DNA of 64,000 bases, from the NCBI GenBank assembly GCA_003285105.1, contig CP030158.1, positions 2,270,501 through 2,334,500 of the forward strand, read 5' to 3'. This DNA is from Roseithermus sacchariphilus. GTDB taxonomy: Bacteria; Bacteroidota; Rhodothermia; Rhodothermales; MEBIC09517. Both the position numbers and the translations under genes were made by a program. How positions within the stretch are numbered: the stretch's first letter is position 1; every line of letters starts with the position of its first letter. Positions 11,357 through 61,701 of this stretch are shown here, one piece after another. The notes beneath the pieces are model-generated. The model did not search any database. It was not told the DNA's origin and worked only from the letters and a program-made list of their open reading frames with translations.

Positions 11357-11411
11357 GGCAGTGGCTGGATCGGGTGAGGGGAGGAGGGAAGGGAAAGAGG
11401 ATGCCCGGGCA

Positions 11412-45304: not shown

Positions 45305-45939
45305 GGAGGTTTCGTACCCGGGGTGAGTATGTAAGGGCCTTCGCAGACAGGGCCAATCGGCGCGTTTGGGCCGTTTTTCAACCATCCAGCCTATCTATAA
45401 TATCCGGATGATGACGGACCTGATCGCCCCTTTGTAGAACTATTGTAGAACGGGGCTGGCAGCCCGCGGATAAGCACATCAACCCGGGCCCGTCGGCTTA
45501 CAGGTTTGTTCGAAGGTGACACCGCTCAACGCTGCAAAAAAGGGTGGAGCGAGATGGTCACGGCGGTGAGCGTTGATACGTTCCGCGCCAGTCCATGTGT
45601 AGGGCACCCTGCTTGGCCGAGCATACCCTTTCGCTTGCGCCGATAGCGATGCCGGCAGTACAAGCCTCCAGCGTTCTCGGGTGCATCCTCTGAACCCCTC
45701 CTCTACCGAATGAGTTCGAAACGTACCCTTCCAACAGAAAGAACCGACGGAGCCCCGTGCCTGCGAACGACAATGCACTAGATTTCCAATACAGAGAAAT
45801 AGATTTCTCACCCCTGCCCTTAACAAACTGCGACAAGGCCCGAATCAGGCGCACTAGAAGGCAATAGCCTGGGATCCAGGTTTGGCACACCTTTGGTCGA
45901 GACGTACCCTGTCATCCACCACCAAACCCCCTTACGGCT
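45305..45939. other. Low-GC spacer before the defense island
   Basis: Together with 45153-45268 this is the longest gene-free stretch (about 790 bp). It holds a pair of TTGTAGAAC repeats (45432-45440, 45443-45451; 11-bp period), a palindrome GAGAAAT-AG-ATTTCTC (45794-45809) and the promoter region of the herA-like gene. Base composition is clearly less GC-rich than the surroundings. Short open frames here show no domain-like sequence. It may contain gene debris or an attachment site. Confidence 0.5.
45881..45912 (+). promoter_or_regulatory. Candidate promoter of the defense-island operon
   Basis: TTGGCA (45882-45887), 17-bp spacer and TACCCT (45905-45910) fit the vegetative layout seen elsewhere, 30 nt before the ATG at 45940. 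The same bases also give TTGGCAC with a weak TGGT at the sigma54 -12 position, which matters because a sigma54-type AAA+ protein is encoded in the operon. Confidence 0.3.
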
Positions 45940-48060
45940 ATGCGCACCATCGGCCAGCACATCGCACAGGGCAGCGACCTCGTCAAACTCATCCAGCCCG
46001 AGAACTTCGTCGGCTGGATCTATGACATCAGCTATGATACCGCCCGGGTCATGACCAACGACCTCTGGAAGGCCAATGCCCTGGGCGTTCCGCACAACGG
46101 CTTCCTCCTCGCTACGGCCTTCAATCCCGAGGCCTATACCGAGGCGGCCGAGGAAGAACGTGAAGTGATCCTCCTGCGCGTGATCGGTCCTGCCCGCCTG
46201 CCCAAGGACGATGAGACCGTACGGGCCAAGATCGACTATTTCCAGAAACAGACAGAGGTGCATGGCAGCCGTGACCGTGATTACGACGACGTCACGCGCA
46301 ACTGGATGCAGTTCCATGGCCTCGAATGTAGCATCCGGGGCACGTTCTTCATCCGCGACGGTGAGCTCTGGCTCGGCAGCGACATCGAGTCTTACTTCTC
46401 GGCCACGCGCCTCAACGTGTACCGCCCTCGAGGGCGTGCGCTGGAGACGATCGTGAACTACGTGGACCCGATCCGCCGGAAGAAAGCCGCCGCGGATGCC
46501 GCCGCGCTCGGCATCAAGGGTCCCATCCAGCCGTTCCGCGTCGGCACGGTCCGGTATACCTCGACGGACCGCCAGCACCGGCGTGACGAGGGGGAACACG
46601 TACCCTTCTACATCGCCCCCTCCGACCTGCTGGCACGCCGCACGTTCGCAGCGGGGATGACGCGTACGGGGAAGTCCAACCTGGTCAAGCACCTGGTCTC
46701 GACGGTCAAGCGCGTTGCGGATGACGGCGGCGTGCCCATCGGACAGCTCATCTATGACCTCAACGGCGAGTACGCCAACGCCAACCAACAGGACAAAGGC
46801 TCCATCGCCGACGTCTACCCGAACGACACGGTGCGCTACCGGCTCGTGCCGGCCGCCGGCTTTGAGGAGTTGCGGACCAACTTCTACGAGCAACTCCATG
46901 AGGGCTTCGCCATCATCCAGCGTGAGCTGGAAGAGGCGGGTGCCGCACAGTCGAATTACGTCCGCAGCTTCCTCAACATGTCGCTCGATGAGCCGGACCC
47001 GCAGGAACGGGGCGAACACCACCGCTGGGAACGGCGCGTGGCGGCGTACCGGGCCCTGCTATACCGTGCCGGGTTCGACGCACCGGCCAACTATCGCATC
47101 CGGTTTGCAGCAAGCCAGGCGGTCCGGCAGGCCGTGGAGAACGAAGCTGGCCACCCGTTCAACACCGTCCAGCGAGGAAACGCGACCTACCTCGACCTGA
47201 CGCCGGCCGAGGCGGTGAAATGGTTCCTGGCCGCCCGCCGTGCCAACCTGGCGAATCCCCTGCCCGGTGGCTCAGACGGCTGGGTCGACGATACCCTGCG
47301 CACCCTCCTGGACATGCTGGCGCAGGAGCAAAATGGGACGTTCATCTCCGGCTTCCGGCTGCTCGCCGACGCCCGGAAATATCATTCCCCGGCACGGACC
47401 GATAACGTGGCCGACGAGATCTACCGGCACCTCGTCGCCGGCAAGATCGTCATCCTGGATCTGTCCGTGGGCGATCCGCGCATCAAGGAGCGCATCAGCA
47501 AAGACGTCGCCTCCAGGGTGTTTCACACCTCGATGAATACGTTCATCCAAGGCCGGACCCCACCCAACATCATGGTCTACGTGGAGGAGGCGCATAACCT
47601 CTTCGGCAGGGACGACGACCTCACCGACACGTGGCCGCGCCTGGCCAAGGAGGGCGCGAAGTTCGGCATCGGGCTCGTCTACGCCACACAGGAGGTGTCT
47701 TCGATTCATCCCAACATCCTGGCCAACACCGAGAACTGGTTCGTCACGCACCTCAACAACGAGCGGGAAGTCAGGGAGCTGGCCCGTTTTTACGACTTCG
47801 CCGACTTCAGCACGTCGATCATCCGGGCGCAGGACGTCGGCTTTGCCCGTGTCAAGACGCTCTCCAGCCCGTTCGTCGTGCCGGTGCAGATCGATCTCTT
47901 CGACCCGGAGGCGGAGAAGCGCCGCCTTGCCGGGCAGCACGGGGGCGCTTCCACCACCGATGACGTGCGCGGGGACGGCGCGGCTCCCGCCTCCGACGAG
48001 CATCCCGAGCCGCCCTTGCCTGATGCCGGCGATCGTCCCAACCTGTTCCACCGTCAATAA
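45940..48060 (+). CDS. HerA-like hexameric DNA translocase/helicase ATPase
   Basis: 706 aa. Walker A GMTRTGKSN lies at 239-247 and Walker B with the catalytic Glu in MVYVEEAHNLF near 545. The sensor or arginine-finger region is WFVTHLNNEREV. The N-terminal 200 residues include a HAS-barrel-like beta domain. HerA pumps DNA through the NurA nuclease ring. The tail beyond 660 is Pro/Ala-rich. nurA-like follows after 8 bp, so the two form a pair. In bacteria such pairs are mostly found in defense loci and not in replication-repair operons as in archaea. Confidence 0.92.
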   Translation: MRTIGQHIAQGSDLVKLIQPENFVGWIYDISYDTARVMTNDLWKANALGVPHNGFLLATAFNPEAYTEAAEEEREVILLRVIGPARLPKDDETVRAKIDYFQKQTEVHGSRDRDYDDVTRNWMQFHGLECSIRGTFFIRDGELWLGSDIESYFSATRLNVYRPRGRALETIVNYVDPIRRKKAAADAAALGIKGPIQPFRVGTVRYTSTDRQHRRDEGEHVPFYIAPSDLLARRTFAAGMTRTGKSNLVKHLVSTVKRVADDGGVPIGQLIYDLNGEYANANQQDKGSIADVYPNDTVRYRLVPAAGFEELRTNFYEQLHEGFAIIQRELEEAGAAQSNYVRSFLNMSLDEPDPQERGEHHRWERRVAAYRALLYRAGFDAPANYRIRFAASQAVRQAVENEAGHPFNTVQRGNATYLDLTPAEAVKWFLAARRANLANPLPGGSDGWVDDTLRTLLDMLAQEQNGTFISGFRLLADARKYHSPARTDNVADEIYRHLVAGKIVILDLSVGDPRIKERISKDVASRVFHTSMNTFIQGRTPPNIMVYVEEAHNLFGRDDDLTDTWPRLAKEGAKFGIGLVYATQEVSSIHPNILANTENWFVTHLNNEREVRELARFYDFADFSTSIIRAQDVGFARVKTLSSPFVVPVQIDLFDPEAEKRRLAGQHGGASTTDDVRGDGAAPASDEHPEPPLPDAGDRPNLFHRQ

Positions 48061-48068
48061 GATGCACC

Positions 48069-49499
48069 ATGCCGTACGAAGGTGAATTCGCGGACAAAGC
48101 CTCCCATTTCGACATCGTCAAGAACCCCGAGGTCGCGGCCTTCCTGAACGAGCAGTGCGACTTCATCAAGCCGCCCTCGGAAGCGGAGGGAAAAGCCATC
48201 GCCGCACGGTTCGTTGTGCCGCCGCCGCTCGACGAGTCCCTGCTGCCGAGGCGCGTCATCGCGACCGATGGCAGCCTCCTGGAGACGAGCTGGGACGAGC
48301 AGCTTCCGAGCACCAGGATCGGCTACGTCAAGGTGGGCTCGGTCCTCATCGATATGCAGGACTTCCAGGGGCTGCGCGTGCGGGGCGGGCGTATGGTCGA
48401 TCCGTTCAAGGTGGCGGCCCTGGAGCGCAACAAGGACGCCCTCACGTTCCCCCTGCCCAGCGCCAACGTCCGCTTCATGGGGAAGGACAACGTCCGCGAT
48501 GGCTTCCGCGCCGCGGTGGATGCCCACCTCGCCTCGGAAAAAACCTGGCTCGTACCCGGCAACCCGAGGACGAGCCTGCGCAGCACGCTCTTCGTGCTGG
48601 CTTCGCGGCGACAGGGGCGGTACGCTGGCCAGCCCATGGGAACGGGCGACCCCACGAAGCTGCGTATCCACAAATGCCCCGATTGTGGGCAGGGGCCGGT
48701 CGAGGTGGCGGATATTCCGGAGCAACAATACTGTCCGCATTGCGGGAGCGAGGTGTATCCCACCGACTGCCTCCGGCTCTGGGAAGAGGTCTCGGACTAT
48801 CAGTCCAATGAAGCGGTCTTCCGGCGGTTCATGCTCATCGTCGAGCACCTGCTCGTGGCGCATTACATCCGCTTCGCCTACGAACTGGAAGGATCGCTTT
48901 CGTCGCTGAGTGAGCTGGCCTTCTTCGTCGACGGCCCGCTGGCCATCCATGGCACGGCGGCCTGGCTCCATGGCAGCCTCATGGCGTACCTTCACGCCAT
49001 CAACACCCGGCTGGAGGAGCGCGGGTACGGGCGCCTGCTGGTGATCGGCCTCCAGAAGTCCGGGGCTGTGGTGGACCATGTGCGGCTGATCGACCGGTTC
49101 ATCCCGAACAACCGGCTCTTTGCCATCGACGACGATTACCGGTACACCTACATCCGCGCCGGCAAAGACCCCTCGGGCAACACCTTCGGCTACGAGACCT
49201 ACTACGGGCAGGACTTCATCTACAAGACCCCGTCGGGGCGAGTCTTTGTCTTTGCCCTGCCGTATCCTTTCGCCTCGAAGCATCCCGAGGGTGTCGATTT
49301 CAAGACGGCCAAGGCCGATATCAGCCGGTATCCCGAGTTGAGCCGGGCGCTGACGCTCATCCACCACTTCGAGTCCGATCTGTATGAGAATGCCGTGATC
49401 CCGGTGGCGCTGGCGCACCGCTACACGGCCATCAGCCTGGAACCTGGTGGACGGGTGCTGAATCTGCTAACCAACAGGGCGCTGGAGCAAAAGGTGTGA
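48069..49499 (+). CDS. NurA-domain nuclease with zinc-ribbon insertion
   Basis: 476 aa. The NurA active-site motif RRVIATDGSLLE (Asp near 67) and the second acidic strand AFFVDGPLAIHG (about 298-309) are clear, with a further conserved LVIGLQKSG and SGAVVDHVRLIDR. Between them an insertion contains two CxxC pairs (CPDCGQGPVE, CPHCGSEV) forming a probable zinc ribbon, which standard archaeal NurA lacks. Partnering HerA, it would degrade DNA ends processively. The gene is longer than typical NurA (about 350-400 aa). Its neighbour is a type I restriction operon 52 bp downstream. Confidence 0.88.
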   Translation: MPYEGEFADKASHFDIVKNPEVAAFLNEQCDFIKPPSEAEGKAIAARFVVPPPLDESLLPRRVIATDGSLLETSWDEQLPSTRIGYVKVGSVLIDMQDFQGLRVRGGRMVDPFKVAALERNKDALTFPLPSANVRFMGKDNVRDGFRAAVDAHLASEKTWLVPGNPRTSLRSTLFVLASRRQGRYAGQPMGTGDPTKLRIHKCPDCGQGPVEVADIPEQQYCPHCGSEVYPTDCLRLWEEVSDYQSNEAVFRRFMLIVEHLLVAHYIRFAYELEGSLSSLSELAFFVDGPLAIHGTAAWLHGSLMAYLHAINTRLEERGYGRLLVIGLQKSGAVVDHVRLIDRFIPNNRLFAIDDDYRYTYIRAGKDPSGNTFGYETYYGQDFIYKTPSGRVFVFALPYPFASKHPEGVDFKTAKADISRYPELSRALTLIHHFESDLYENAVIPVALAHRYTAISLEPGGRVLNLLTNRALEQKV

Positions 49500-49551
49500 C
49501 AAGGTGTTAGTTTGGCCTGCCGGGAAGCCATGAGAACGGATGCACTATGAT

Positions 49552-51816
49552 ATGAGCGACCACCGACATACAGAAGCGGATGCACGTCTCGTCATTGATG
49601 AGCAGCTTCGTCAGGCTGGTTGGGACCCCTCCGACCATTCGCAGGTCGGCATCGAGGTCAAGATCCCTCTCGGTGACGGTGCTCCCGAGCGTGTGGCAGA
49701 CCCGGCTTGGCCTTATGAGGCACGTCCTGCCAAGGGCGGACGCGCCGACTACGTGCTCTACGACCAGCAGGGCAACCCCCTGGCCGTCATTGAAGCCAAG
49801 AAAACGGCGATACAACCGTACACCGCCAAGCAGCAGGCGCTGCCGTACGCTCGACAGCTGGGCGCCCCCTTCATTTTTCTGACCAACGGCGAGCTCATCT
49901 ATTTCTGGGACTACCAGAACGACGACGCCCGCATTGTCAATGCATTTTTCTCGCGGCAGGACCTGGAGCGGCTGCTGTATCTGCGCCGGGAGCGCAAACC
50001 GCTGGCCACGGTTCCGATCCCCGAGCACTTCGTCAGTAATGGGCGGGCATGCACCCTGCGCCCGTACCAGCGGGAGGCCATGCGAGCCCTGGACCACGCC
50101 ATTGAACTGGGCAAGCGGCGCTTCCTCATCGAACTCCCCACCGGAACAGGCAAGACCGCGCTCATCGTCCTCTACCTCAAGCGCCTCATCGAGGCCGGCC
50201 ATGCCATGCGGGTGCTCTTCCTCGTGGACCGGGAGCAGCTGGCCATGCAGGCGCTGGCTGCCTTCCAGGACCTGGCCCCGCACTACAGCAGCTACTGGCT
50301 GCGACCCGGCACAGAACGGGAGGAGAAGCAGATCACCGTGTGCCTCCTCCAGACGATGATCAGCCGCTACGAGGAGTTCACCAGCGGCTACTTCGACGTG
50401 GTTGTCATGGACGAGAGCCACCGCTCCATCTACGGCAACTGGCAGACGGCCCTCACCCACTTCGATGCTCTCCACATTGGGCTTACGGCCACGCCGGCCG
50501 CCTACATAGACCGCAACACCTACCGCTTCTACGGCTGCGAGACGAATAAGCCGGACTTCTCGTATCCGATTCAGCAGGCTTTCGAAGAGGGTTACCTCGT
50601 TCCTTACACGTTTGCCACGGGCATTACGCGCCTCATTGCCGAAGGAGCGGAGGACGAAGAAGAGCACTACGACCCGGCCGCCTTCGAACGCAAGTGGACC
50701 AACGAGGACACCAACCGCCTGATGATGCAGGAGTTCGATCGGCTGGCGTGGGAGAACTACAAGAACCTGGCCCCCGATCAGGACCCCGGTCCCGGGAAGG
50801 CTGTCGTCTTCGCTATCACCAAACACCACGCGGCGCGGCTGGCACGGTACCTCAACGAACTGCATCCCGAACACAGGGGGCGCTATGCCGAGGTCATCAC
50901 TTCGGACGTACAAGATGCAGGTGAGCTCATCCGGCGTTTCCAGCAGGAAACTTACCCGATGGTGGCTGTCAGCGTGGACATGCTGACGACCGGCTTCGAC
51001 TTGCCCGAACTGCTTCACCTGGTCCTGTGCCGCCGGGTGCGCAGCCCCATCCTCTACCAGCAAATGCGCGGCCGGGGCACCCGGCGGGCCGACCACATCG
51101 GCAAACGTCGCTTCGTCATCTACGACTTCTTCGGCAACAAAGAGTACTTCGGCGACAGCGACGCGGACGTCTTCTCCGGGGCGGCCACCGGGCGAGCGCC
51201 GGGCGGTAGCGGAAGCGATCGGGCGCCTACCGAGCGAGAACTGGCCGAGTTGGGCCTCGAAGACGAATGGCTGCGGGCCGTCTCCTACGTGGAAGTCGGG
51301 CCCGAAGGCGAGCGGATCGACAAGCGCGCCTACCGGAGCTACTGGGAAGATGCCGTTCGGGCCGCCGCCGGCACCGATCCCATCCTCCGCAAAATCCGCG
51401 ACGGGCAGCCGCTTTCTGCCGAGGAAGAACAGGAACTGGCCCGCCGGCTCAACACGCCCGACTACTATTTCAACCAGGACAACTTACGCCGCGCCTACGA
51501 CAACACGACGGGCGACCTGATCGACTTCGTGCGCGTGGCATTGGGACAGGCCCGGGTGAAAAGCCGTGAGGAAATCCTTACGGAAAACTTCCAGGCCTGG
51601 CTCGTCACGAAGAACCTGACGCCGGAGCAGGCACAATACCTGACACTGCTTAAAAACCGGGGCATCGTCAAAGGCGGCATCCGCGTACACGACCTCTTCG
51701 AGCCGCCACTTTCGATCCTCGATGCCGCCGGCGTGGGCGTCGAACTCTTCGGCGAGGTGGAGCTGAAGCGCATCATTCAAGAACTAAACGAATCGGTCTT
51801 CCAGGAGGCCGCCTGA
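49552..51816 (+). CDS. hsdR: Type I restriction endonuclease subunit R (HsdR, EcoEI-like)
   Basis: 754 aa. The N-terminal PD-(D/E)XK nuclease has Asp66 and EAK at 81-83 (RADYVLYDQQG ... VIEAKK). The SF2 helicase shows Walker A LPTGTGKT (195-202), DESH (287-290), TATPAA, and motif VI QQMRGRGTRR. The C-terminal region (about 640-754) holds the HsdR C-domain (YYFNQDNLRRAYDNTTGDLIDFV in part). It cleaves unmodified DNA after ATP-driven translocation with HsdM and HsdS. An ATG at 49540 is an equal alternative start. The gap to hsdM is 12 bp. Confidence 0.95.
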   Translation: MSDHRHTEADARLVIDEQLRQAGWDPSDHSQVGIEVKIPLGDGAPERVADPAWPYEARPAKGGRADYVLYDQQGNPLAVIEAKKTAIQPYTAKQQALPYARQLGAPFIFLTNGELIYFWDYQNDDARIVNAFFSRQDLERLLYLRRERKPLATVPIPEHFVSNGRACTLRPYQREAMRALDHAIELGKRRFLIELPTGTGKTALIVLYLKRLIEAGHAMRVLFLVDREQLAMQALAAFQDLAPHYSSYWLRPGTEREEKQITVCLLQTMISRYEEFTSGYFDVVVMDESHRSIYGNWQTALTHFDALHIGLTATPAAYIDRNTYRFYGCETNKPDFSYPIQQAFEEGYLVPYTFATGITRLIAEGAEDEEEHYDPAAFERKWTNEDTNRLMMQEFDRLAWENYKNLAPDQDPGPGKAVVFAITKHHAARLARYLNELHPEHRGRYAEVITSDVQDAGELIRRFQQETYPMVAVSVDMLTTGFDLPELLHLVLCRRVRSPILYQQMRGRGTRRADHIGKRRFVIYDFFGNKEYFGDSDADVFSGAATGRAPGGSGSDRAPTERELAELGLEDEWLRAVSYVEVGPEGERIDKRAYRSYWEDAVRAAAGTDPILRKIRDGQPLSAEEEQELARRLNTPDYYFNQDNLRRAYDNTTGDLIDFVRVALGQARVKSREEILTENFQAWLVTKNLTPEQAQYLTLLKNRGIVKGGIRVHDLFEPPLSILDAAGVGVELFGEVELKRIIQELNESVFQEAA

Positions 51817-51828
51817 GCAAACGACACG

Positions 51829-53559
51829 ATGGATATACAGGTTCGACAGACGCTCGACCGCATCACCAACATGCTGTTCGCCGGCGGGGTCAACAACCCC
51901 ATTACGTACATCGAACAGCTCTCGTACCTCATTTACCTCAAGATGCTCGACGAGGAGGAGGCGCGGCGTGCGGGCCTGCAGGCCCGCCTGCTGGGCGAGG
52001 AGGCCAACGGCAACGCACAGCCGCTCTTCCCGGAGCAGGCCGAGCGCTACCGCTGGAGCAACTGGCGCTTCAAGAGCGGGGAGGAGCTGGTGAAGTTCGT
52101 TCGTGATGAGGTCTTCCCCTACATGGCCTCGCTCGTGAAGGAGGCCCCCAGAGTGGCCGTCTACTTCCAGGATGCCCGCCTCGAAGTGGACGACCCCGCC
52201 GTGCTCAAGCAGGTCGTCGACGAGATCGACACGATCCAGTTCTCGAAGATGGGGCCGGACGCCAAGGGCGACATCTTCGAGTACCTGCTCACGTACCTGA
52301 GCACCATGGAGGGGGCGCTGCTGGGGCAGTTTCGCACCCCCAAGCAGATCCGCGCCATGATGGTGGCGATGGTGGACCCCGACCTCGGCGACACGATCTT
52401 TGACCCGGCCTGCGGCACCGGCGGCTTCCTCATCGACGCCGTGGAACATGTGCTGGCGCGCTACTCTAGCCCCGAATTGGTGAAAGAGGCCCCCATCTAC
52501 GGCGAGACCTGGCTCGAAAACAAGGGCTGGACCCTCGAAGAAGCCAAACGGCAGATCCCCAACCTCCAGACGTACAAACGCGGCCCCGCCGACCGTATCC
52601 CCACGGGCGGCTGGGAAATGCTGGAGCGCTCCGTCTACGGCTTCGACGTCTCCCGGCAGATGATGCGCATCGCCATGATGAACATGGTGCTGCACGGCCT
52701 TCGCAACGCCAACATCAAGCGGGCCAATACCCTCTCGGAGACGGGCGGCCTCACCGACGAAGACCTGAAACGCCGTTACCGTGTCATCCTGTCCAACCCG
52801 CCCTTTGCCGGGGTGCTGCCCAAAGACTCGATCCGCAAGGACCTGCCCACGAAATCGAAGAAAAGCGAGCTGCTGTTCCTGGGCGTGATGATGCAGGCGC
52901 TGGCCCCCGGCGGCCGGTGCGCTGTGGTCCTGCCCGAGGGCGTCCTCTTCGGCTCAACGAGTGCCCACCGCGACCTGCGCCGCAAGCTGGTGCATGAGTT
53001 CGAACTGCTGGCGGTCGTCTCGCTCCCGGCGGGCGTCTTCAAGCCCTACGCCGGTGTGAAGACCTCGGTGCTCGTCTTCCGCAAGCCGAAGGCCGAGCGG
53101 GTGCACGCTACCGAACCGGCCACGCAAAAGGTATGGTTCTACGAGGTCCGCAACGACGGCTACGACCCCGACAGGGTCGCCGGCGGCGGGCGCGTGGAGA
53201 CGCCCGAAGCCAACGACATCCCGGCGCTGCTGGCGGCGTGGAAAGCCTACAAAGCCTCCGGCTTCCGGGAGCCGCCGGGCGTGGAGGCCAACGCCGTGCT
53301 GGAGCCCGGCACCGAGCCGCCCGCCTGCTGGTGGGCCGACGTGGAGCGCATCGCAGAGAACGACTACAGCCTCTCGGCCGGACGCTACAAACCCCTCGTG
53401 CGGAAAGAGCGCCGCCAGGAGGACCCCGGCGAACTCATCGAAGAACTGCTCGACCTGGAACATCGCATCGCGGCGGGCCTGATGGACCTGCTGCGCGAAG
53501 TGGACCCGGAACGCGCCGCCCAGCGTAACGCACCAAAGATGGAGGAGGAAATGAAATGA
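51829..53559 (+). CDS. hsdM: Type I restriction-modification N6-adenine methyltransferase (HsdM)
   Basis: 576 aa. The helical N-terminal HsdM domain (1-150) precedes the SAM motif FDPACGTGGF (191-200) and the catalytic NPPF (323-326). The motif VLPEGVLFG and the late VVSLPAGVFKPYAGVKTSVLVF are typical. It methylates the adenine of the bipartite site chosen by HsdS and is needed for restriction. hsdS starts in an ATGA overlap with its stop. Confidence 0.97.
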   Translation: MDIQVRQTLDRITNMLFAGGVNNPITYIEQLSYLIYLKMLDEEEARRAGLQARLLGEEANGNAQPLFPEQAERYRWSNWRFKSGEELVKFVRDEVFPYMASLVKEAPRVAVYFQDARLEVDDPAVLKQVVDEIDTIQFSKMGPDAKGDIFEYLLTYLSTMEGALLGQFRTPKQIRAMMVAMVDPDLGDTIFDPACGTGGFLIDAVEHVLARYSSPELVKEAPIYGETWLENKGWTLEEAKRQIPNLQTYKRGPADRIPTGGWEMLERSVYGFDVSRQMMRIAMMNMVLHGLRNANIKRANTLSETGGLTDEDLKRRYRVILSNPPFAGVLPKDSIRKDLPTKSKKSELLFLGVMMQALAPGGRCAVVLPEGVLFGSTSAHRDLRRKLVHEFELLAVVSLPAGVFKPYAGVKTSVLVFRKPKAERVHATEPATQKVWFYEVRNDGYDPDRVAGGGRVETPEANDIPALLAAWKAYKASGFREPPGVEANAVLEPGTEPPACWWADVERIAENDYSLSAGRYKPLVRKERRQEDPGELIEELLDLEHRIAAGLMDLLREVDPERAAQRNAPKMEEEMK

Positions 53560-54770
53560 TGTGGCCCTTCTACAAGATGAGTCAAGTAGCAGAGATTAAT
53601 CCGCGAGACAGCCACTGGAAAAAATTGCCAGACGACACGATGGTGTCATTTGTCCCCATGCCAGCTGTCTCGGAAATTACGGCATCTATCGAAGATGCTG
53701 AGATTCGTCCACTCGGCGAGGTAAGGCGAGGCTATACCCATTTCCGCGATAATGATGTGCTATTTGCTAAAATCACTCCGTGTATGGAAAATGGGAAAGT
53801 CGCTCTTGCACAGCATCTTAAGAGTGGCTTGGGGTTCGGATCTACTGAATTCCACGTGATCAGAAGCAAGGATGGCGTTCTACCCCGTTATCTCTATTTC
53901 TTTGTGCGACAGCCTTCCTTCCGTCGCCATGCCAAGCAACGAATGAGAGGTGCCGCGGGCCAACAACGGGTCCCCAAACAGTTTCTAGCAGATTATCAGA
54001 TCCCCCTTCCACCCCTCTCCGAGCAGCGCCGCATCGTCGAGCTGCTCGACCGGGCCGATGCGCTGCGCCGGATGCGCCGCGACGCCGACGCGCTGGCCGA
54101 GCGGGTGCTGCCGGCGCTCTTCTACCAGATGTTCGGCGACCCTCGGAGTAACCCGAAGGGAATCAAGAAGAAGCCGCTTAAGAAGCTTCTCAGAGTAAAG
54201 AGTGGCTCTTTCCTTCCAGCAAGGTCAATGGACTCCGAAGGGCCTTATCCGGTCTACGGTGGAAATGGCATCAATGGATATCACTCCGAATATCTTTTCG
54301 AGGAGCCTGTCATCGTTATAGGACGAGTCGGGGCATATTGCGGAGTAGTACACCGCGCACCTCCTCGCTCATGGGTCACAGACAACGCGCTCTATGTGAG
54401 TGAGATGAGCGACGAGCTAAACGAGCGATACCTTGAACTAGCGCTTCGACTTGCGAATCTCAACCAGTATTCGAGTAAAGCAGCACAGCCGCTTATCTCA
54501 GGTAAGCGGATTTATCCCGTCGAAATTCTGGTGCCTGACCTGGATGCGCAGGAGACGTTTGTCAATCGGGTTGCTGCACTCGACAAGCTCAATGCACAGG
54601 CTGCCAAGAGTCGAAAAGCCCTAGACGACCTCTTCACCCTCATGCTCCAGCGTGCCTTCAGCGGCGAGCTGACGGCGGCCTGGCGGGAGGCGCATCTGAA
54701 GGAACTGTTGCAGGAGATGGAGGCGCAGGCCCGGCACCTGGGGCTGCCCCAATCCACGCAACCGGCCTGA
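53556..54770 (+). CDS. hsdS: Type I restriction-modification specificity subunit (HsdS)
   Basis: 404 aa with two target-recognition domains (about 1-150 and 205-345), each followed by a conserved coiled-coil spacer (LPPLSEQRRIVELLDRADALRRMR and a second near 345-375). The first TRD and the second TRD are visibly less GC-rich than the spacers, the usual sign of TRD exchange between lineages. The final sequence ELTAAWREAHLKELLQ is the C-terminal HsdS signature. The TRDs define the two half-sites, which cannot be predicted from sequence here. The gene appears intact. Confidence 0.94.
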   Translation: MMWPFYKMSQVAEINPRDSHWKKLPDDTMVSFVPMPAVSEITASIEDAEIRPLGEVRRGYTHFRDNDVLFAKITPCMENGKVALAQHLKSGLGFGSTEFHVIRSKDGVLPRYLYFFVRQPSFRRHAKQRMRGAAGQQRVPKQFLADYQIPLPPLSEQRRIVELLDRADALRRMRRDADALAERVLPALFYQMFGDPRSNPKGIKKKPLKKLLRVKSGSFLPARSMDSEGPYPVYGGNGINGYHSEYLFEEPVIVIGRVGAYCGVVHRAPPRSWVTDNALYVSEMSDELNERYLELALRLANLNQYSSKAAQPLISGKRIYPVEILVPDLDAQETFVNRVAALDKLNAQAAKSRKALDDLFTLMLQRAFSGELTAAWREAHLKELLQEMEAQARHLGLPQSTQPA

Positions 54771-54772
54771 CC

Positions 54773-54973
54773 ATGCCCGAGCCGAAACACACCCCTCTCC
54801 CCGAGACGCGGCGGCTCCTCGAGGCCTGCCGCTCGCGGCAGGCCTCGCACTACGGGGCGCGGCTGGCCGGGGTGGTGCTCTACGGCTCGGCCCGCTCCGT
54901 CCCGGCCGACGCGTACGAGCAGGGCGCCACGCAGCGCTACCGCAACGCACGCGCCGAGGGGCTTGCCGTATGA
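54773..54973 (+). pseudogene. Internally deleted MNT-type nucleotidyltransferase
   Basis: 66 aa. The N-terminus matches MNT-family antitoxins up to GVVLYGSARS, the helix-loop with the GS motif. It then jumps straight to a typical C-terminus (YEQGATQRYRNARAEGLAV). The middle of about 40 residues with the catalytic D-x-D pair and the strand after it is missing, yet the frame is kept. It starts 2 nt after hsdS and overlaps the HEPN remnant by ATGA, as intact MNT-HEPN pairs do. It cannot transfer nucleotides. Confidence 0.75.
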
Positions 54974-55080
54974 GCCATCCCCGGGCCGACGAGATCCGCG
55001 CCAACCTGGAGCGCGCCGGAGAGACGCCGGAGGCGGCCCGCCTGCTCCTGCGGGAAGGCTTCTGCGACAGCGCCGCCTCC
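54970..55080 (+). pseudogene. Truncated HEPN-domain gene
   Basis: Residues 1-37 (SHPRADEIRANLERAGETPEAARLLLREG, seen in part, then FCDSAAS) match the first helix pair of HEPN toxins paired with MNT proteins. After that the reading becomes proline-rich and unrelated, and the ATPase gene begins in another frame at 55118. The RX4-6H RNase motif is absent, so only a stub remains. Together with the MNT remnant it shows that a toxin-antitoxin pair decayed or was partly replaced here. Confidence 0.72.
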
Positions 55081-55117
55081 TCGGCGCCGCCACCGGCGAC
55101 GAACAACACGACGAACG

Positions 55118-56794
55118 ATGATCCGATCCCTCTACCTGAGCAACTTCAAGGCCTTCGGCGACACCGGCGGGCAGCCGATCCCCATTCGGCCCATCACCCT
55201 CATCTTCGGCCCCAACAGCGCCGGCAAGTCGAGCCTGATCCACAGCCTGCTGCTGGCGCACGAAGCGCTCCACACCGGCAACCTGGACGTGCACCACACC
55301 CGGGCCGGCGGTCGATCTGTCGACCTGGGCGGCTTCCGGCAATACGTGCACCGGCACCGCACCGAAGCGCCGGTGCAGTGGGGCGTGGCCCTCGCCGTCG
55401 AGGACCTGCCGGAGGAGCGTCTCCCGGAGTTGCTCTCAGGTGCCGACACGCTCAAAGTGCTCCTGCACATCGGTATGGAGCATCGTGAGGACGAGCGCAC
55501 CGGTGAGGTGCGGCCCGTCGGCCCTCCCCACGTCCGCCGCTACGAAGTAGAAATCGACGGCAAGCTGCTGTTGACCATGAGCCGGCGCCACACGGGCTAT
55601 TTGCAGCTGGACCGGTTACACACGACGCATCCCATCCTGAAGCAGGTGATGGAGGCCATTCTCCTGGCCCACACCACCACCGCCGAAATACGCCCGGACG
55701 ATCTGCATGCCGTCGAGCGATCCATCAACGAGATAACACCCGATCTCAAGGCTCAGGGAACGGGCCTCTTGCCGCGCCGGCTCGATGCGCTGAGAAACTC
55801 CTCGGCCGTTGGAGAAACCCTCATCCCGATCAGCCGCGAGCACCGGGGAAGCGACATCGAAGGCGCAACACGTCTGTTCCTTCCCCGCATCCTCAATACC
55901 CTGTTAGTAGGGATCCACGATGCGTTGAAGCAAGCCTTCGGCCGGATGAGCTATCTGGGTCCGCTTCGTTCCTATCCGCCCCGGCATTTCGCGTTCTCCG
56001 ACGACCAGGACCCAAACTGGCAGGCCGGTGGCGGGCAGGCCTGGGATCTGGCCCGGCGAGACGAAAAGATCCGCGAAGCCGTCAATCGCTGGCTCCGCTC
56101 CGACCGGCTCACCAACCCTTACGAGCTACGCATTCGCCGCCTCATCAGCGATCGCTCCGAAGCCCTCCAGCAGCAACTCTACCGGGCCCTCGATGAGCTA
56201 GGAAATCAGGCATCTCTTGCGGGGGGTGCTATCCAGCCTACTGACGAGGACCTTTCAGCAACCTGGGATACCGACCTCCTCACACGCCGCTTTATGGAGT
56301 ACCTGACCGACCCGGACGCCGTTGAAGGCTATGCCGAGCTGGTCCTCTGGGACGTGCAGCGAGAAACCGAGGTCAGTCACCGCGACGTGGGCGTGGGTGT
56401 GAGCCAGGTACTGCCGGTGCTGGTGCTGGCTTATGCCAGCGAGAACAACCTCATCGCCATCGAACAGCCCGAGATCCACGTGCACCCCGCCCTTCAGGCC
56501 GAACTGGGCGATGTCTTCATCGAGTCGGCGCTCGGTCCAAGGAAGAATACATTCCTGATCGAAACGCACAGCGAACACCTGATGCTGCGTATCCTTCGGC
56601 GCATCCGGGAGCAGACAGAAGGCGAAGCCGATCCGGGACTTCACCCTATTCGCCCCACCGATGTCAGTGTGCTCTACGTAGACCCCCGTGGCAGCGACAC
56701 CGCCGTCAAGGAGATCCCCGTCACCGACGACGGTGATTTTGCCGAACGCTGGCCGGCCGGTTTCTTTACCGAACGCGAGAAAGAACTGTTTTAA
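55118..56794 (+). CDS. DUF3696-type SMC-like AAA ATPase (defense associated)
   Basis: 558 aa. ABC/SMC-type ATPase: Walker A GPNSAGKSS at 31-39 right after LSNFKAF, a signature region DVGVGVSQVLPVLVLA, Walker B LIAIEQPEIHVHP (about 450) and the H-loop LIETHSEHLMLR. The C-terminal tail (TAVKEIPVTDDGDFAERWPAGFF, in part) is the DUF3696 mark. A long middle region (about 60-400) forms the coiled or helical arm. Such ATPases are sensors that control an effector encoded beside them (compare Septu, Gabija and retron partners). The partner starts 2 nt downstream. Function is inferred from architecture. Confidence 0.88.
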   Translation: MIRSLYLSNFKAFGDTGGQPIPIRPITLIFGPNSAGKSSLIHSLLLAHEALHTGNLDVHHTRAGGRSVDLGGFRQYVHRHRTEAPVQWGVALAVEDLPEERLPELLSGADTLKVLLHIGMEHREDERTGEVRPVGPPHVRRYEVEIDGKLLLTMSRRHTGYLQLDRLHTTHPILKQVMEAILLAHTTTAEIRPDDLHAVERSINEITPDLKAQGTGLLPRRLDALRNSSAVGETLIPISREHRGSDIEGATRLFLPRILNTLLVGIHDALKQAFGRMSYLGPLRSYPPRHFAFSDDQDPNWQAGGGQAWDLARRDEKIREAVNRWLRSDRLTNPYELRIRRLISDRSEALQQQLYRALDELGNQASLAGGAIQPTDEDLSATWDTDLLTRRFMEYLTDPDAVEGYAELVLWDVQRETEVSHRDVGVGVSQVLPVLVLAYASENNLIAIEQPEIHVHPALQAELGDVFIESALGPRKNTFLIETHSEHLMLRILRRIREQTEGEADPGLHPIRPTDVSVLYVDPRGSDTAVKEIPVTDDGDFAERWPAGFFTEREKELF

Positions 56795-56796
56795 TC

Positions 56797-57675
56797 ATGG
56801 TGCATGAGTACGCACTGGAGCCGGACGTGCTCTCAACCTGGGATAAATTCAGGTATTTCATGGAGCAGTTCGGCGTCGAGCACGGACGTCTCATTTCGCA
56901 GTTTCCAAAGAAATGGAAGCGGTACGTCATCGAAGCGTGTGCGGATACGGAAATCAACCGGAAAAGGATCGAAGTGCGACTACGGTCTATCGATGATCGG
57001 CTCATCCGTTCGGGTCGTCCCTACGACCCGAAACAGTCCTGGCTGGTTAATGCCATTACCCAGCACGGCCAAAATCCTTTCCATGCCATCATCGCGCGGC
57101 AAAACCCGGTCAACCACGCGGACGTGATTAAGGCCGACGACGTCAGTGATTCGACGCCAAAGTGGGCCGTCCGTGCACGTAAGCGGGTACGCAGAAGCGC
57201 CATGGATCTGGCCGAGGCCATCGCACCGCTGATCAGGATCAGCAAGAAGGTCGTCTTAGTGGATCCTTATTTCAGACCAACGGAGCGACGCTACCAGCGA
57301 AGCCTCGGAGCAATCCTGAGAACGGGTTGGCATTCAGGAATCGAGCGCATCGAAATTCACTGCCGTACGCTTGGAAATCCAACAGAGATGTGGGAGAACG
57401 ATTGCCGGCGGGCTTTCTTGCCATGTTTGCCGAACGGTGTAGCGGTCACGCTGGTGCGCTGGCGTGAGCGAGACGGCGGGGAAACCATGCATGCCCGTTA
57501 CGTCCTGACCGAGCGCGGCGGTTTACACATCGACTATGGCCTGGACGAGGGCAACGGAAACCAGACGACCGATATTTCTCTGCTCAGTCAGGCAGATAGT
57601 GCCGAGCGTCTCCGCGATTACGAAACCCCCATCTCACCCTTTGATGAGGTGGACCGTATTACGCTTCGCCGGTGA
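56797..57675 (+). CDS. Putative effector with phospholipase-D/MIT_C-like fold
   Basis: 292 aa, not a family I can name with certainty. The C-terminal half has KVVLVDPYFRP (about 151-161), as in PLD-like and MIT C-terminal domains (IxDPYF), then HARYVLTERGGLHIDYGLDEGNG (in part; His232), comparable to the H-x-R/K strand followed by a GLD-type turn of MIT_C. The N-terminal half (1-130) is charged and helical (ISQFPKKWKRYVIEACADTE in part). It starts 2 nt after the ATPase and ends 5 nt before the next ATG, implying a strict pair. PLD-fold proteins can be nucleases or phospholipases. Only one His motif is seen, so a dimeric active site would be needed. Confidence 0.6.
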   Translation: MVHEYALEPDVLSTWDKFRYFMEQFGVEHGRLISQFPKKWKRYVIEACADTEINRKRIEVRLRSIDDRLIRSGRPYDPKQSWLVNAITQHGQNPFHAIIARQNPVNHADVIKADDVSDSTPKWAVRARKRVRRSAMDLAEAIAPLIRISKKVVLVDPYFRPTERRYQRSLGAILRTGWHSGIERIEIHCRTLGNPTEMWENDCRRAFLPCLPNGVAVTLVRWRERDGGETMHARYVLTERGGLHIDYGLDEGNGNQTTDISLLSQADSAERLRDYETPISPFDEVDRITLRR

Positions 57676-57680
57676 GTCCC

Positions 57681-59330
57681 ATGAGCAAGAAAACCGACGG
57701 CTATGTCCTCCTCTCCTGGATCGCCAAAAGCAACGATCCCTACCAGCAGGTAGGCGAGCAGCGGATGCTCGGCCCCACGCTCGGGCTCCTCTTCGAAGAG
57801 GCCTCCCCCTATCACGGGCAGATCACGGACGTGGTGCTCTTTGCCCGGGACCACGACGAAAAGCCACGATCCGGCGAGCTATCGGAGCGCCAGATCCTCG
57901 ACTACCTCACGCGCGAGATCCGGGAGCGCGATCCCGGTATCACGGTGCACCCACGCCTCTGGGAGGGGGAGGACCCGACCGACTACGAGGCCATCCACGC
58001 CTTCCTCAAGGCCGAGGTGCCCCGGCTGCGCGAGCAGTTTCCCGGGCGCGCGTGGGTCATCCACATCAGCCCCGGCACGCCCGCCATGCAGACCATCTGG
58101 GTGCTGATGGTCGAGACGGGGCAGATCCCGGGGCCGGTCACCATGGTCAAGTCGTACCGGCCGTGGGAGCGCAAGGAGGGCAAGCTGGCCGTGCCGGTGC
58201 GGCTGAACCTGGAGACCCTGTTCCGGACGCTGCCGGCCTCCCGTCCGGCGGAGGTGGCCGACGAGGGCGAAGAGATCTTCTGGAACCCGGCCCGCTTCCG
58301 GTCCGACCGGCTGAAACAGCTCTACGCGCAGGCCCGCCGCATCGCCCCTCTCAACGTGCCCGTGCTGATCCTGGGCGAGCGCGGCACCGGCAAGACGACG
58401 CTCGCCTCGTGGATCCGCCTCAACAGCCCGTTCCGCAACAAGAAGCTCGACGACCACTGGCCCTCGCTCGCCTGCGGCGCCTACACGTCCGAGACCATGC
58501 GCTCGGAGCTGCTGGGCCATAAGAAGGGCGCCTTCACCGGCGCGGACCGGGACAAACCCGGCCTCTTCCAGCAGGCCGACGGCGACACCCTCTTCCTCGA
58601 TGAGATCGGCGACATCTCGCCGGACCTGCAGCGCCTGCTCATCCGCGCCATCGAAGAGAAACGCTTCTACCCCCTCGGGGCCGACAAGCCCGAGCAGAGC
58701 AACTTCCGCCTCATCACGGCCACCAACCGCCCGGTGGCCGACCTCCGCCGCCGCCTCGACGACGACTTCTTCGACCGCATCGGGCAGTTCGTGCTGCGCC
58801 TCCCGCCCCTCCGCGAGATCCCCGAAGAGATCCCCTGGCTCTGGCCGACCGTGCTGCAGGAAGCCCTGCGCCGTGCAGGCGCCCGGACGCTCTTTGTGCC
58901 CCTGGACGAAGCAGACGAGCACCGGCTGGTGGAGCAGCTGCAACGCCATCCGTTGCCCGGCAACATCCGCGACCTGTTCAAGGTGGCCAACCAGCTCATC
59001 GCGTCCCGCATCGCCGTGGACGAGGCCACCCCGGTGCTGCCCCCGGACGAGGCGATCCGCCACGCCCTGAAGGCCCTGGAGACGGACCTCTTCCCACCGC
59101 CCGAGGTGGACCTGGCCCGTGCGCTGGCGGCGGCCTACGCGAAAGACCTGCCCCTCGACAGCCTGCTCGAAAACCTGGAACGGGTCGAGATCAAGCAATA
59201 CACCCGCAAGTTCTCCGCCTACCTGGCCGACGAGGTGCTCCGGTACGCGAAGCGGCACGGACGCAACGTGGAGGAATGGACCGATTACACGCCCCGTCGG
59301 CTTCAGGACCTGCAGAAGGCGCGAGTGTAG
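57681..59330 (+). CDS. CARF-AAA+ sigma54-activator-like protein (RtcR-like)
   Basis: 549 aa from ATG 57681 (GTG at 57672 possible). The N-terminal domain (1-190) is a CARF-like sensor: DVVLFARDHDE, a helix ILDYLTREIRER, and IHISPGTPAMQTIWVLM (128-143), the signature of RtcR sensors. The AAA+ domain has Walker A GERGTGKT (232-239), an intact GAFTGA sigma54-contact loop (283-288) and Walker B TLFLDEIGD (303-311). The region after 440 is helical, without an obvious Fis-type helix-turn-helix. RtcR binds an RNA-derived ligand and activates rtcBA; no rtc genes are visible here. Being inside the operon, it may activate the island in response to a cyclic or RNA-end signal. Confidence 0.85.
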   Translation: MSKKTDGYVLLSWIAKSNDPYQQVGEQRMLGPTLGLLFEEASPYHGQITDVVLFARDHDEKPRSGELSERQILDYLTREIRERDPGITVHPRLWEGEDPTDYEAIHAFLKAEVPRLREQFPGRAWVIHISPGTPAMQTIWVLMVETGQIPGPVTMVKSYRPWERKEGKLAVPVRLNLETLFRTLPASRPAEVADEGEEIFWNPARFRSDRLKQLYAQARRIAPLNVPVLILGERGTGKTTLASWIRLNSPFRNKKLDDHWPSLACGAYTSETMRSELLGHKKGAFTGADRDKPGLFQQADGDTLFLDEIGDISPDLQRLLIRAIEEKRFYPLGADKPEQSNFRLITATNRPVADLRRRLDDDFFDRIGQFVLRLPPLREIPEEIPWLWPTVLQEALRRAGARTLFVPLDEADEHRLVEQLQRHPLPGNIRDLFKVANQLIASRIAVDEATPVLPPDEAIRHALKALETDLFPPPEVDLARALAAAYAKDLPLDSLLENLERVEIKQYTRKFSAYLADEVLRYAKRHGRNVEEWTDYTPRRLQDLQKARV

Positions 59331-59372: not shown

Positions 59373-60732
59373 ATGGCACAGAACACATTTCCCTACGAAG
59401 CAAACATTGAGACCGCAAGATTGCTGTTGGATGTGGAAAATCCTCGCATTCCTCAACAGCCTTCCAATCAGCGCGATGCCATCGTTTCGATGGCAAGGAA
59501 CCAAGAAAACAAACTGTTGGCGCTTGCCAAACATATCGTCGAAAATGGCCTAAACCCTGCCGATCGGCTCATTGTTATCCCGGACGGTCCCGATGATTTT
59601 ATTGTGCTTGATGGGAATCGCCGCCTCACGGCTTTGAAGGTGCTCGAAACACCCGAAATGGTTCTCGATAGTCTTAAGGGGTCGGCAGCCAGACAGCTAA
59701 AGAAGCTAGCAGATACATATAAGCAGGCCCCTATCGACCGGCTACCCTGTATAGTTTTACGCGACCGAGAAGAAGCAGACACGTGGATCGAGCTTCTGCA
59801 CGATGACAAAAGCGGTGGTGCCGGCCCCGTGAAGTGGAGTGCACAGCAGAAACGGCGCTATCAGAGTCGCAGGGGAGCCAAACCCTACCATCTTCAAGTT
59901 TCTCGATTTTGTAACGCAGCAAGGCTCTCTGAGTCAAGAAACGCAGCAGAAGATCGCAGCGGGAAGGTATCCAGTCAGCACGTTAGAACGGTTGCTTAAT
60001 ACGCCTTACGTTAGAGAAAAGCTGGGTATAAAGTTCAGCGAAGGGAAAGTGCAAACCCATCTACCAAAGAACGAGGTGCTCAAAGGACTCAGCCATGTAA
60101 TAGACGACATTGGGACGGGACGGGTGAAGGTAGGACAGTTAATGAGACAGGCCCAGCGTATCGATTATATCAACGGGCTGGACGAAGCTGTACTTCCCGA
60201 TTTAACCCTGGCCCAAGGTAAAGCACAATCGATTGAGGACCCTTCGCCAGAACCCGAAAAGCCCGACGGGAAACCGCGTAGCAAAGACCGCCAGCATAGT
60301 ACCACCCGCAAACATCTCATCCCGCATGACTTCACTATTAGCATCGAAGCTGCCCGCATTAACGATATTTACATTGAGCTGAAACGACGGCTCGAAGTAC
60401 AGAAGACGCCAAATGCCGTTGCCGTTATGCTACGTGTCTTTCTAGAACTGAGCCTTGATGATTTCTTAGAGCGGAACAGCATTGATGTACAAGGTCGTCC
60501 AACTCTGGCCAATAAGGTCAAAGCGTCTGCAGATTACCTGCAGAACCGAGGGGTCATGAGTGCGAACGAACTTCAACCAATTCGCCGTGCAGTTCAAGAC
60601 CAAGACGATACGAACTCTGTTAGAACGTTGCATGGATTCGTACACAACCGACGATTTTCACCTGCGCCGAGTGATTTGATAGCTATCTGGGATACCTTCC
60701 AGATCTTCTTCGAGCAACTGTGGCCAGACTGA
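59373..60732 (+). pseudogene. ParB-like nuclease-domain protein with HEPN-like C-terminus, frameshifted
   Basis: Two frames make one protein of about 450 aa. The first (59373 to about 59875) has the ParB/Srx core: RLLLDVENPRIPQQPS, LAKHIVENGLNPADRLIVIP, FIVLDGNRRLTALKVL. The second (to 60732) resumes with EPNPTIFKFLDFV and ends in a helical region whose SVRTLHGFVHNRRFSP fits a HEPN RX6H motif. Removing one G of the GGGG run at 59872-59875 joins them exactly (RREPNPTIF). The gene is markedly less GC-rich than its surroundings. It may be a real mutation, a slippage switch or a sequencing error. Role unknown; similar proteins occur in defense islands. Confidence 0.8.
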
Positions 60733-60783: not shown

Positions 60784-61701
60784 ATGTACTACTCCCCCCT
60801 CCGTTATCCCGGCGGCAAACGCAAGCTCGCCAACTTCTTCAAGCTGCTGTTCCGGGCGAACGACCTGATGGACGGGGACTACGTGGAGCCCTACGCGGGC
60901 GGGGCCGCGGTGGCCCTCGCGCTGCTCTTCGAGAACTACGCAGCCCGCATCCACATCAACGACCTGGACCGGGGGGTCTATGCGTTCTGGCGCGCCGTCC
61001 TCTGCGACACGGACGCGCTCTGCCGGCGTATCGCCGAGGTGCCCGTCGACATGGAGACCTGGGAGCGGCAACGCGCCGTCTATGACGCGACGGACCCGGA
61101 CCCGCTCGACCTCGCGGTGGCCACCTTCTTCCTCAACCGCACCAACCGATCGGGCATCATCACGGGCGGCGTCATTGGAGGCAAGGCCCAAAAGGGCGCC
61201 TGGAAGCTCGATGCGCGCTTCAACAAGCCCGACCTCATCCAGCGGATCGAAAAGATCGCCCGCCATCGGAGCCGCATCCACCTGTACAACGACGATGCGG
61301 CCCCCTTCATCGACCGCATGGCGCACACCCTGCCACCGCGGTCGCTCTTCTACCTCGATCCTCCCTATTACGTCAAGGGCAAGAGCGAGCTCTACGCCAA
61401 CTATTACGAGGAACAGGACCACCGGCTCATCGCGGAGCGGGTAAGCCGCCTCGAGCATCCCTGGGTCGTCTCCTACGACGACGTGCCGGAAATCCGCACG
61501 CTGTACCGGCGCTTCCGCTGCGTGGCCTATGGCATCAGTTACAGCACACAGGACCGGTATCGGGGGCGGGAGGTGATGTTCGCCTCGGATGGGCTGGTGC
61601 TCCCACCGGTCGACAACCCCTCGGCGATCAAGGCCGGCGAGTGCCGCAGGCTGGAACGGCACATCGCGCAAGCCGCCGCAGCGCCCCTGTTGGACCTGTG
61701 A
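60784..61701 (+). CDS. Dam-family DNA N6-adenine methyltransferase
   Basis: 305 aa. Motif order is that of Dam/MT-A70-alpha-class enzymes: MYYSPLRYPGGKRKL (motif X), YVEPYAGGAAVAL (motif I), INDLDRGVY, and catalytic DPPY at 192-195 (FYLDPPYYVKG). LNRTNRSGIITGG is typical of phage- and island-borne Dam enzymes. No matching restriction enzyme is adjacent; the GIY-YIG gene 0.5 kb downstream is a possible but unproven partner. It may modify the host against an island nuclease or belong to a mobile element. Confidence 0.93.
   Translation: MYYSPLRYPGGKRKLANFFKLLFRANDLMDGDYVEPYAGGAAVALALLFENYAARIHINDLDRGVYAFWRAVLCDTDALCRRIAEVPVDMETWERQRAVYDATDPDPLDLAVATFFLNRTNRSGIITGGVIGGKAQKGAWKLDARFNKPDLIQRIEKIARHRSRIHLYNDDAAPFIDRMAHTLPPRSLFYLDPPYYVKGKSELYANYYEEQDHRLIAERVSRLEHPWVVSYDDVPEIRTLYRRFRCVAYGISYSTQDRYRGREVMFASDGLVLPPVDNPSAIKAGECRRLERHIAQAAAAPLLDL

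Follow-up and report, generated by a model that had tools for sequence, protein, structure and literature searches.

Gene content of the island and domains of the CARF-AAA+ protein

The window, by which we mean the whole stretch of 64,000 nucleotides of Roseithermus sacchariphilus DNA that was analysed, carries a run of genes that begins with a HerA-like ATPase and ends with a gene for a CARF-AAA+ protein, followed downstream by two PD-Lambda-5-like genes, the first of them frameshifted:

45940-48060, forward strand: HerA-like ATPase, first of the run (partial PADLOC and NCBIfam HerA matches)
48069-49499, forward strand: 476-aa protein, NurA-like as suggested by its position (no PADLOC or NCBIfam match)
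49540-51816, forward strand: hsdR of a type I restriction-modification (R-M) system (PADLOC and NCBIfam)
51829-53559, forward strand: hsdM of the type I R-M system (homology to M genes of R-M operons; related loci)
53556-54770, forward strand: hsdS of the type I R-M system (PADLOC and NCBIfam)
54774-55110: apparent MNT-HEPN toxin-antitoxin remnant between hsdS and the ATPase gene (read by eye)
55118-56794, forward strand: AAA ATPase with C-terminal DUF3696 (Pfam; plasmid homologues)
56797-57675, forward strand: effector-like protein of 292 aa that pairs with the ATPase in a separate module (homologues in five plasmid records, with an ATPase gene adjoining)
57681-59330, forward strand: CARF-AAA+ protein of the RtcR_PspF1 family, 549 aa (open frame, Pfam, PADLOC, tree)
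59373-60732, forward strand: PD-Lambda-5A-like gene, split by a frameshift near 59840-59999 (PADLOC)
60784-61701, forward strand: PD-Lambda-5B methyltransferase, open frame (PADLOC)

The initial annotation had placed the CARF gene in a defence operon, 5 nt behind an ATPase-effector pair. Both observations hold, with hsdRMS, PD-Lambda-5 and related genes around it and 5 nt left between the end of the effector gene and the CARF start codon. The effector-like protein matched no family in Pfam, PADLOC, NCBIfam or PHROGs, and a search for direct repeats as island ends gave none of at least 18 nt (14-nt seed). Within the CARF gene the following features were located:

57681-58220, forward strand: CARF domain, residues 1-180 (AF2 model, Csm6 fold matches, Pfam RtcR over cut-off)
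58065-58088, forward strand: CARF strand-4 motif ISPGTPAM, residues 129-136
58278-59000, forward strand: sigma54-activator AAA+ domain, residues 200-440 (Pfam; FlrC and PspF folds)
58374-58397, forward strand: Walker A, GERGTGKT, residues 232-239
58527-58544, forward strand: L1 loop GAFTGA, residues 283-288, intact
58590-58607, forward strand: Walker B, LFLDEI, residues 304-309
59190-59318, forward strand: C-terminal helices (residues 504-526, 530-532 and 538-546), a probable degenerate helix-turn-helix (HTH; AF2 model, family alignment)

The CARF signature noticed earlier proved to be invariant in an alignment of 38 sequences, and the Walker motifs and the GAFTGA loop are intact as had been described. 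Pfam recognized the Sigma54_activat domain (E 3.5e-42) and the RtcR N-terminal domain (25.9 bits against a cut-off of 23.1). The PADLOC model RtcR_PspF1--CARF_AAA_HTH (PDLC01994) matched residues 7-547 with E 9.6e-175 and 580 bits, and because this match is full-length the protein is, as judged from its sequence, of a kind already known. It is not RtcR itself, since it scores 223.8 bits with the RtcR equivalog of NCBIfam, below the cut-off of 650. The AlphaFold (AF2) model has a mean pLDDT of 87, with about 85-97 over most of the CARF domain. As the initial annotation had expected, the N-terminus takes a CARF fold in this model; its nearest structure is Csm6 with a bound cyclic hexa-adenylate analogue (6tug_B; Z 18.3, rmsd 2.3 over 152 residues), and a second Csm6 structure (8pe3_A) matched with Z 16.6. 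The AAA+ domain matches FlrC (Z 26.1) and PspF (Z 23.8).

A copy of the CARF gene with 95.8% nucleotide identity is found in another genome (L039), on a contig that ends inside the gene. The match begins one base before the ATG of the window gene, and conservation starting only there supports the chosen start codon. Comparison of the two copies over 337 codons gave a dN/dS of 0.34, which points to purifying selection on a protein with intact Walker and GAFTGA motifs. Upstream of this copy lie an MNT-HEPN pair and a gene for a DUF499 protein, so that the CARF gene appears to move independently of the genes in front of it. The MNT-HEPN-like pair there is longer than the remnant in the window.

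With regard to the C-terminus, the initial annotation had seen no Fis-type DNA-binding domain. This stands insofar as Pfam HTH_8 gave no match in the protein even at E 10, with the HTH_8 cut-off passed at eight other places in the same genome, but the terminal 45 residues can be aligned with the HTH of relatives, two of which (L041 and L073) have weak HTH_8 matches, and the RtcR_PspF1 model is covered to its last column but one. In the AF2 model a long helix is followed there by a helix of a single turn and then by the final helix; a fold search with the C-terminal part alone reached a best Z of 3.2, and no HTH entry stood out. Alignment and model together make a degenerate HTH likelier than none.

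Relatives of the CARF gene and sigma54 sites at their operons

A second CARF-AAA+ copy is present in the same genome, and two other Rhodothermales (L034, L040) carry its orthologues. These core copies are chromosomal, with a kinase or FabH gene upstream and a LysM transglycosylase gene downstream. The copies at L032 (about 10140-11783), L034 (11188-12879) and L040 (1421-3079) all have GAFTDA, not GAFTGA, and those at L032 and L034 lie between Ser/Thr kinase and LysM transglycosylase genes. In the tree the window protein groups next to the core copies (support 99/97), then with L041, and then with a clade of 13, the helicase-operon clade, to which its own clade is sister (joint clade support 100/99). 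Viral collections and phage records yielded no relatives of the protein.

In the clade of 13 the CARF gene stands last, in the order SF1 helicase, protein of about 375 aa (X), PLD protein, CARF; the window gene and the L039 copy likewise end their gene runs. The SF1 helicase resembles the C-terminal half of Mokosh MkoA. The full quartet helicase-X-PLD-CARF was found in 16 loci from five phyla (L047, L050, L055, L057, L059, L061, L064, L068, L076, L078, L085, L087, L111, L112, L114 and L115), mostly with a sigma54 site in front, and is possibly an undescribed defence system. On a Klebsiella plasmid (L113) a helicase-PLD-CARF operon is broken by IS elements and the helicase is missing.

Other relatives stand before hsdRMS rather than ending a helicase operon. 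On Methylocella, Azotobacter and Vibrio plasmids the ATPase and effector genes directly follow hsdRMS. In the Methylocella set a WYL regulator precedes hsdR, and the sets of Azotobacter and V. coralliilyticus have there, in place of WYL, a CARF activator of the sister subfamily, so that V. coralliilyticus p337 and Azotobacter pAcX50d combine a CARF activator, hsdRMS, a DUF3696-type ATPase and a homologous effector. In Deinococcus the pair occurs without hsdRMS and without an adjoining CARF gene in the stretch read. Since the pair is found with WYL, without hsdRMS in Deinococcus, and with the CARF gene at the opposite end, it is a module of its own, separate from the CARF gene. The hsdRMS-ATPase-effector operon, for its part, is repeatedly accompanied by ligand-binding regulators, the copy in the window having its regulator at the other end. 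The unit of hsdR-M-S, a DUF3696-type ATPase and an effector of about 295 aa recurs in the window (49540-57675) and at L090, L116, L120 and L122, and its regulator varies between WYL, PspF2 CARF and PspF1 CARF.

The operons of these relatives were surveyed for -24/-12 sites with a scoring matrix based on the published consensus. Sites of at least 11 bits within 250 bp of an operon start were counted, and other genes of the same loci served as controls. Such a site precedes 10 of 15 helicase operons and all 6 hsdR starts, against 8 of 343 controls (Fisher 1.4e-11 and 1.2e-9, respectively), these p values being rough because the loci include related ones. The helicase operons divide into 8/11 in the first set and 2/4 among newly fetched plasmid and genome loci, the hsdR starts into 2/2 and 4/4. 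The 11-bit threshold was picked after the first set had been seen; the result changes little between thresholds of 9 and 11 bits, and at 12 to 14 bits the excess over controls persists, with the new helicase loci falling to 1/4 or 0/4. Starts added once the pattern had been seen have a site of at least 11 bits in 7 of 10 cases (5.7e-9), and other downstream genes in 4 of 8. When the first set was compared with shuffled sequences, 9 of the 11 helicase-operon starts did better (p<0.05), and only 1 of 44 CARF gene starts.

In the helicase loci the activator gene is itself part of the operon downstream of the site; at the hsdRMS operons, among them those on p337 and pAcX50d, the site lies between activator and hsdR. 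Palindromes that could be upstream activating sequences occur at each locus upstream of the sites, with no common motif seen. Taken together, the excess at operon starts is good evidence, on the level of promoter sequence, that this family of CARF activators switches on neighbouring defence operons via sigma54. At one locus (L048, about 9640, reverse strand) a gene from the control set, divergent from the CARF gene, has a strong site of 14.2 bits, and some CARF activators may therefore serve divergent targets.

Proposed sigma54 control of the island and the rival explanations

The genome encodes RpoN (PF00309, E 7.7e-18). Neither RtcB nor RtcA or the RTC family gave a match anywhere in it, control searches being positive, so that the description of the gene as lacking rtc partners holds for the whole genome. 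No Cas10 was found with the Csm1 and Cas10 palm models, the search for an oligoadenylate source covering Cas10 of type III CRISPR; an apparent match to the Csm1 model was rejected, as it reads as an HD domain, RNase Y-like. The signal cannot be one that depends on RtcA/RtcB, and type III CRISPR is an unlikely source of it in this host. Possible signals are RNA fragments or a nucleotide produced in the course of infection.

The promoter evidence within the island itself is thin. A sigma54 scan of the whole window showed no clear excess over shuffles, and after retraining on the family sites the best same-strand site of the island reached 9.5 bits, compared with 13.5 bits for the weakest training site. 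A weak site of 9.5 bits lies 150 bp before PD-Lambda-5A. One lead was seen in front of the run:

45883-45898, forward strand: perfect TGGCAC -24 box with a broken -12 (GT for GC) (TGGCACACCTTTGGTC; TTTGGCAC)

Its distance to herA is 58 bp, where an operon promoter would be expected, and it scores a non-significant 4.4 bits; only 1 of 107 control genes from this genome has TGGCAY comparably far upstream, and as the box was found after looking it is counted only as a lead. Four exact sigma54 consensus sites lie elsewhere in the genome, with no obvious defence genes near them. The Rhodothermales core copies have no good adjacent sigma54 site either, and this, together with their GAFTDA loop, suggests that the branch of the window protein and the core copies may be leaving sigma54 control.

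Among the alternatives left by the initial annotation, a ligand-gated transcriptional switch or a non-transcriptional AAA+ component, the former is favoured by the sigma54 sites before the defence operons of relatives, but it finds no good site within this island. On balance, we think that the window protein is probably a ligand-gated sigma54 activator (bacterial enhancer-binding protein) of the defence operon that it ends. Here the CARF domain would hold the AAA+ motor inactive, by analogy with E. coli RtcR, whose CARF domain represses the motor and which oligoadenylates do not activate (PMC9650030); a nucleotide-type signal, arising from infection or RNA damage, would lift this block on binding. 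The released motor would form a ring whose GAFTGA loops contact the sigma54 holoenzyme at a -24/-12 promoter at the operon start, and remodelling of the holoenzyme would lead to transcription of the defence genes and of the activator itself as the last gene. Repression by the CARF domain, the ligand, the ring and the promoter targeted in this genome are inferred. The missing convincing site in the island, the degenerate HTH and the frameshifted PD-Lambda-5A downstream speak against such control of the operon.

The same lack of a good island site, along with the consensus sites elsewhere, the weak site before PD-Lambda-5A and the independent movement implied by the L039 copy behind unrelated genes, could also mean that the protein is a sigma54 activator with targets elsewhere in the genome, or of PD-Lambda-5 only, and forms a separate small module in the island. 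We regard this as unlikely, given that the sites of the family lie beside the activator gene and that the exact consensus sites elsewhere have no obvious defence genes nearby. If sigma54 function had been lost altogether, the CARF-gated motor might act on another protein of the island, as the degenerate HTH, the missing island promoter and GAFTDA in the sister group would allow. That the window copy keeps GAFTGA, the sigma54-contact loop, in a genome with rpoN, and that sites in both other subclades suggest a transcriptional ancestral role, makes such a non-transcriptional role distinctly improbable.

A tie of the CARF gene to the ATPase-effector pair was not supported. A three-gene abortive system in which the CARF protein gates the effector directly would fit the 5-nt spacing on one strand, but was rejected as highly improbable because its parts occur apart: the pair lacks an adjoining CARF gene in Methylocella, with its WYL regulator, and in Deinococcus, the CARF activator stands at the opposite end of the operon on the Azotobacter and V. 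coralliilyticus plasmids, and the L039 copy of the CARF gene has no such pair in front of it. That the gene is idle or in decay, as the frameshifted neighbour and the MNT-HEPN remnant might suggest, is scarcely credible in view of the motifs, all intact, and the dN/dS against L039.

Relation to known RtcR-like proteins

To our knowledge, the ways in which defence islands are switched on are poorly understood. Activation of R-M and other defence genes through sigma54 by RtcR-like CARF proteins was predicted in 2014 and 2024 (PMC4012209; PMC11090510), the latter work touching on promoters once, in passing. No promoter test of this prediction was found in the accessible literature; the idea itself is not new, the promoter test is.

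The window protein matches the RtcR_PspF1 model as a whole and falls within RtcR_PspF1 in the tree, but most members found end a helicase-X-PLD operon. The window gene instead closes a run of HerA, hsdRMS, ATPase and effector genes, and the HTH of its product is more degenerate. The protein shares the order of CARF and sigma54 AAA+ (and probably HTH) domains with E. coli RtcR, the activator of rtcBA, but its genome lacks rtcA and rtcB. RtcR_PspF2 proteins upstream of hsdRMS agree with it in domain order, and two plasmids have them beside the same set of hsdRMS, ATPase and effector genes, but they form a separate subfamily that stands first in the operon, with a clearer HTH and clear sigma54 sites, unlike the window gene in its last position. 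The RtcR homologues associated with CoCoNuT likewise occur in superoperons for defence, some of which include type I R-M and PLD genes, though at the 5' end (PMC11090510), and the window gene ends its run. Csm6 of type III CRISPR provides the nearest solved CARF structures, but the window protein lacks its HEPN effector domain.

Within two subfamilies the survey backs the sigma54 prediction for RtcR-like CARF proteins, and it points to plasmid-borne loci in Vibrio, Azotobacter and Pseudomonas at which sigma54 control is directly testable. We tentatively suggest that PspF1-type CARF proteins might be built-in infection sensors that turn on entire defence operons, interchangeable among helicase-X-PLD, hsdRMS-ATPase-effector and DUF499 operons and exerting sigma54-dependent positive feedback from the last gene, and that the quartet might be an undescribed, sigma54-inducible defence system. 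Plasmids of Rhodoferax and Polaromonas (L038, L118) carry a CARF activator before a VWA-PP2C-kinase-AAA operon, and at L038 the end of the CARF gene holds a sigma54 site of 16.6 bits.
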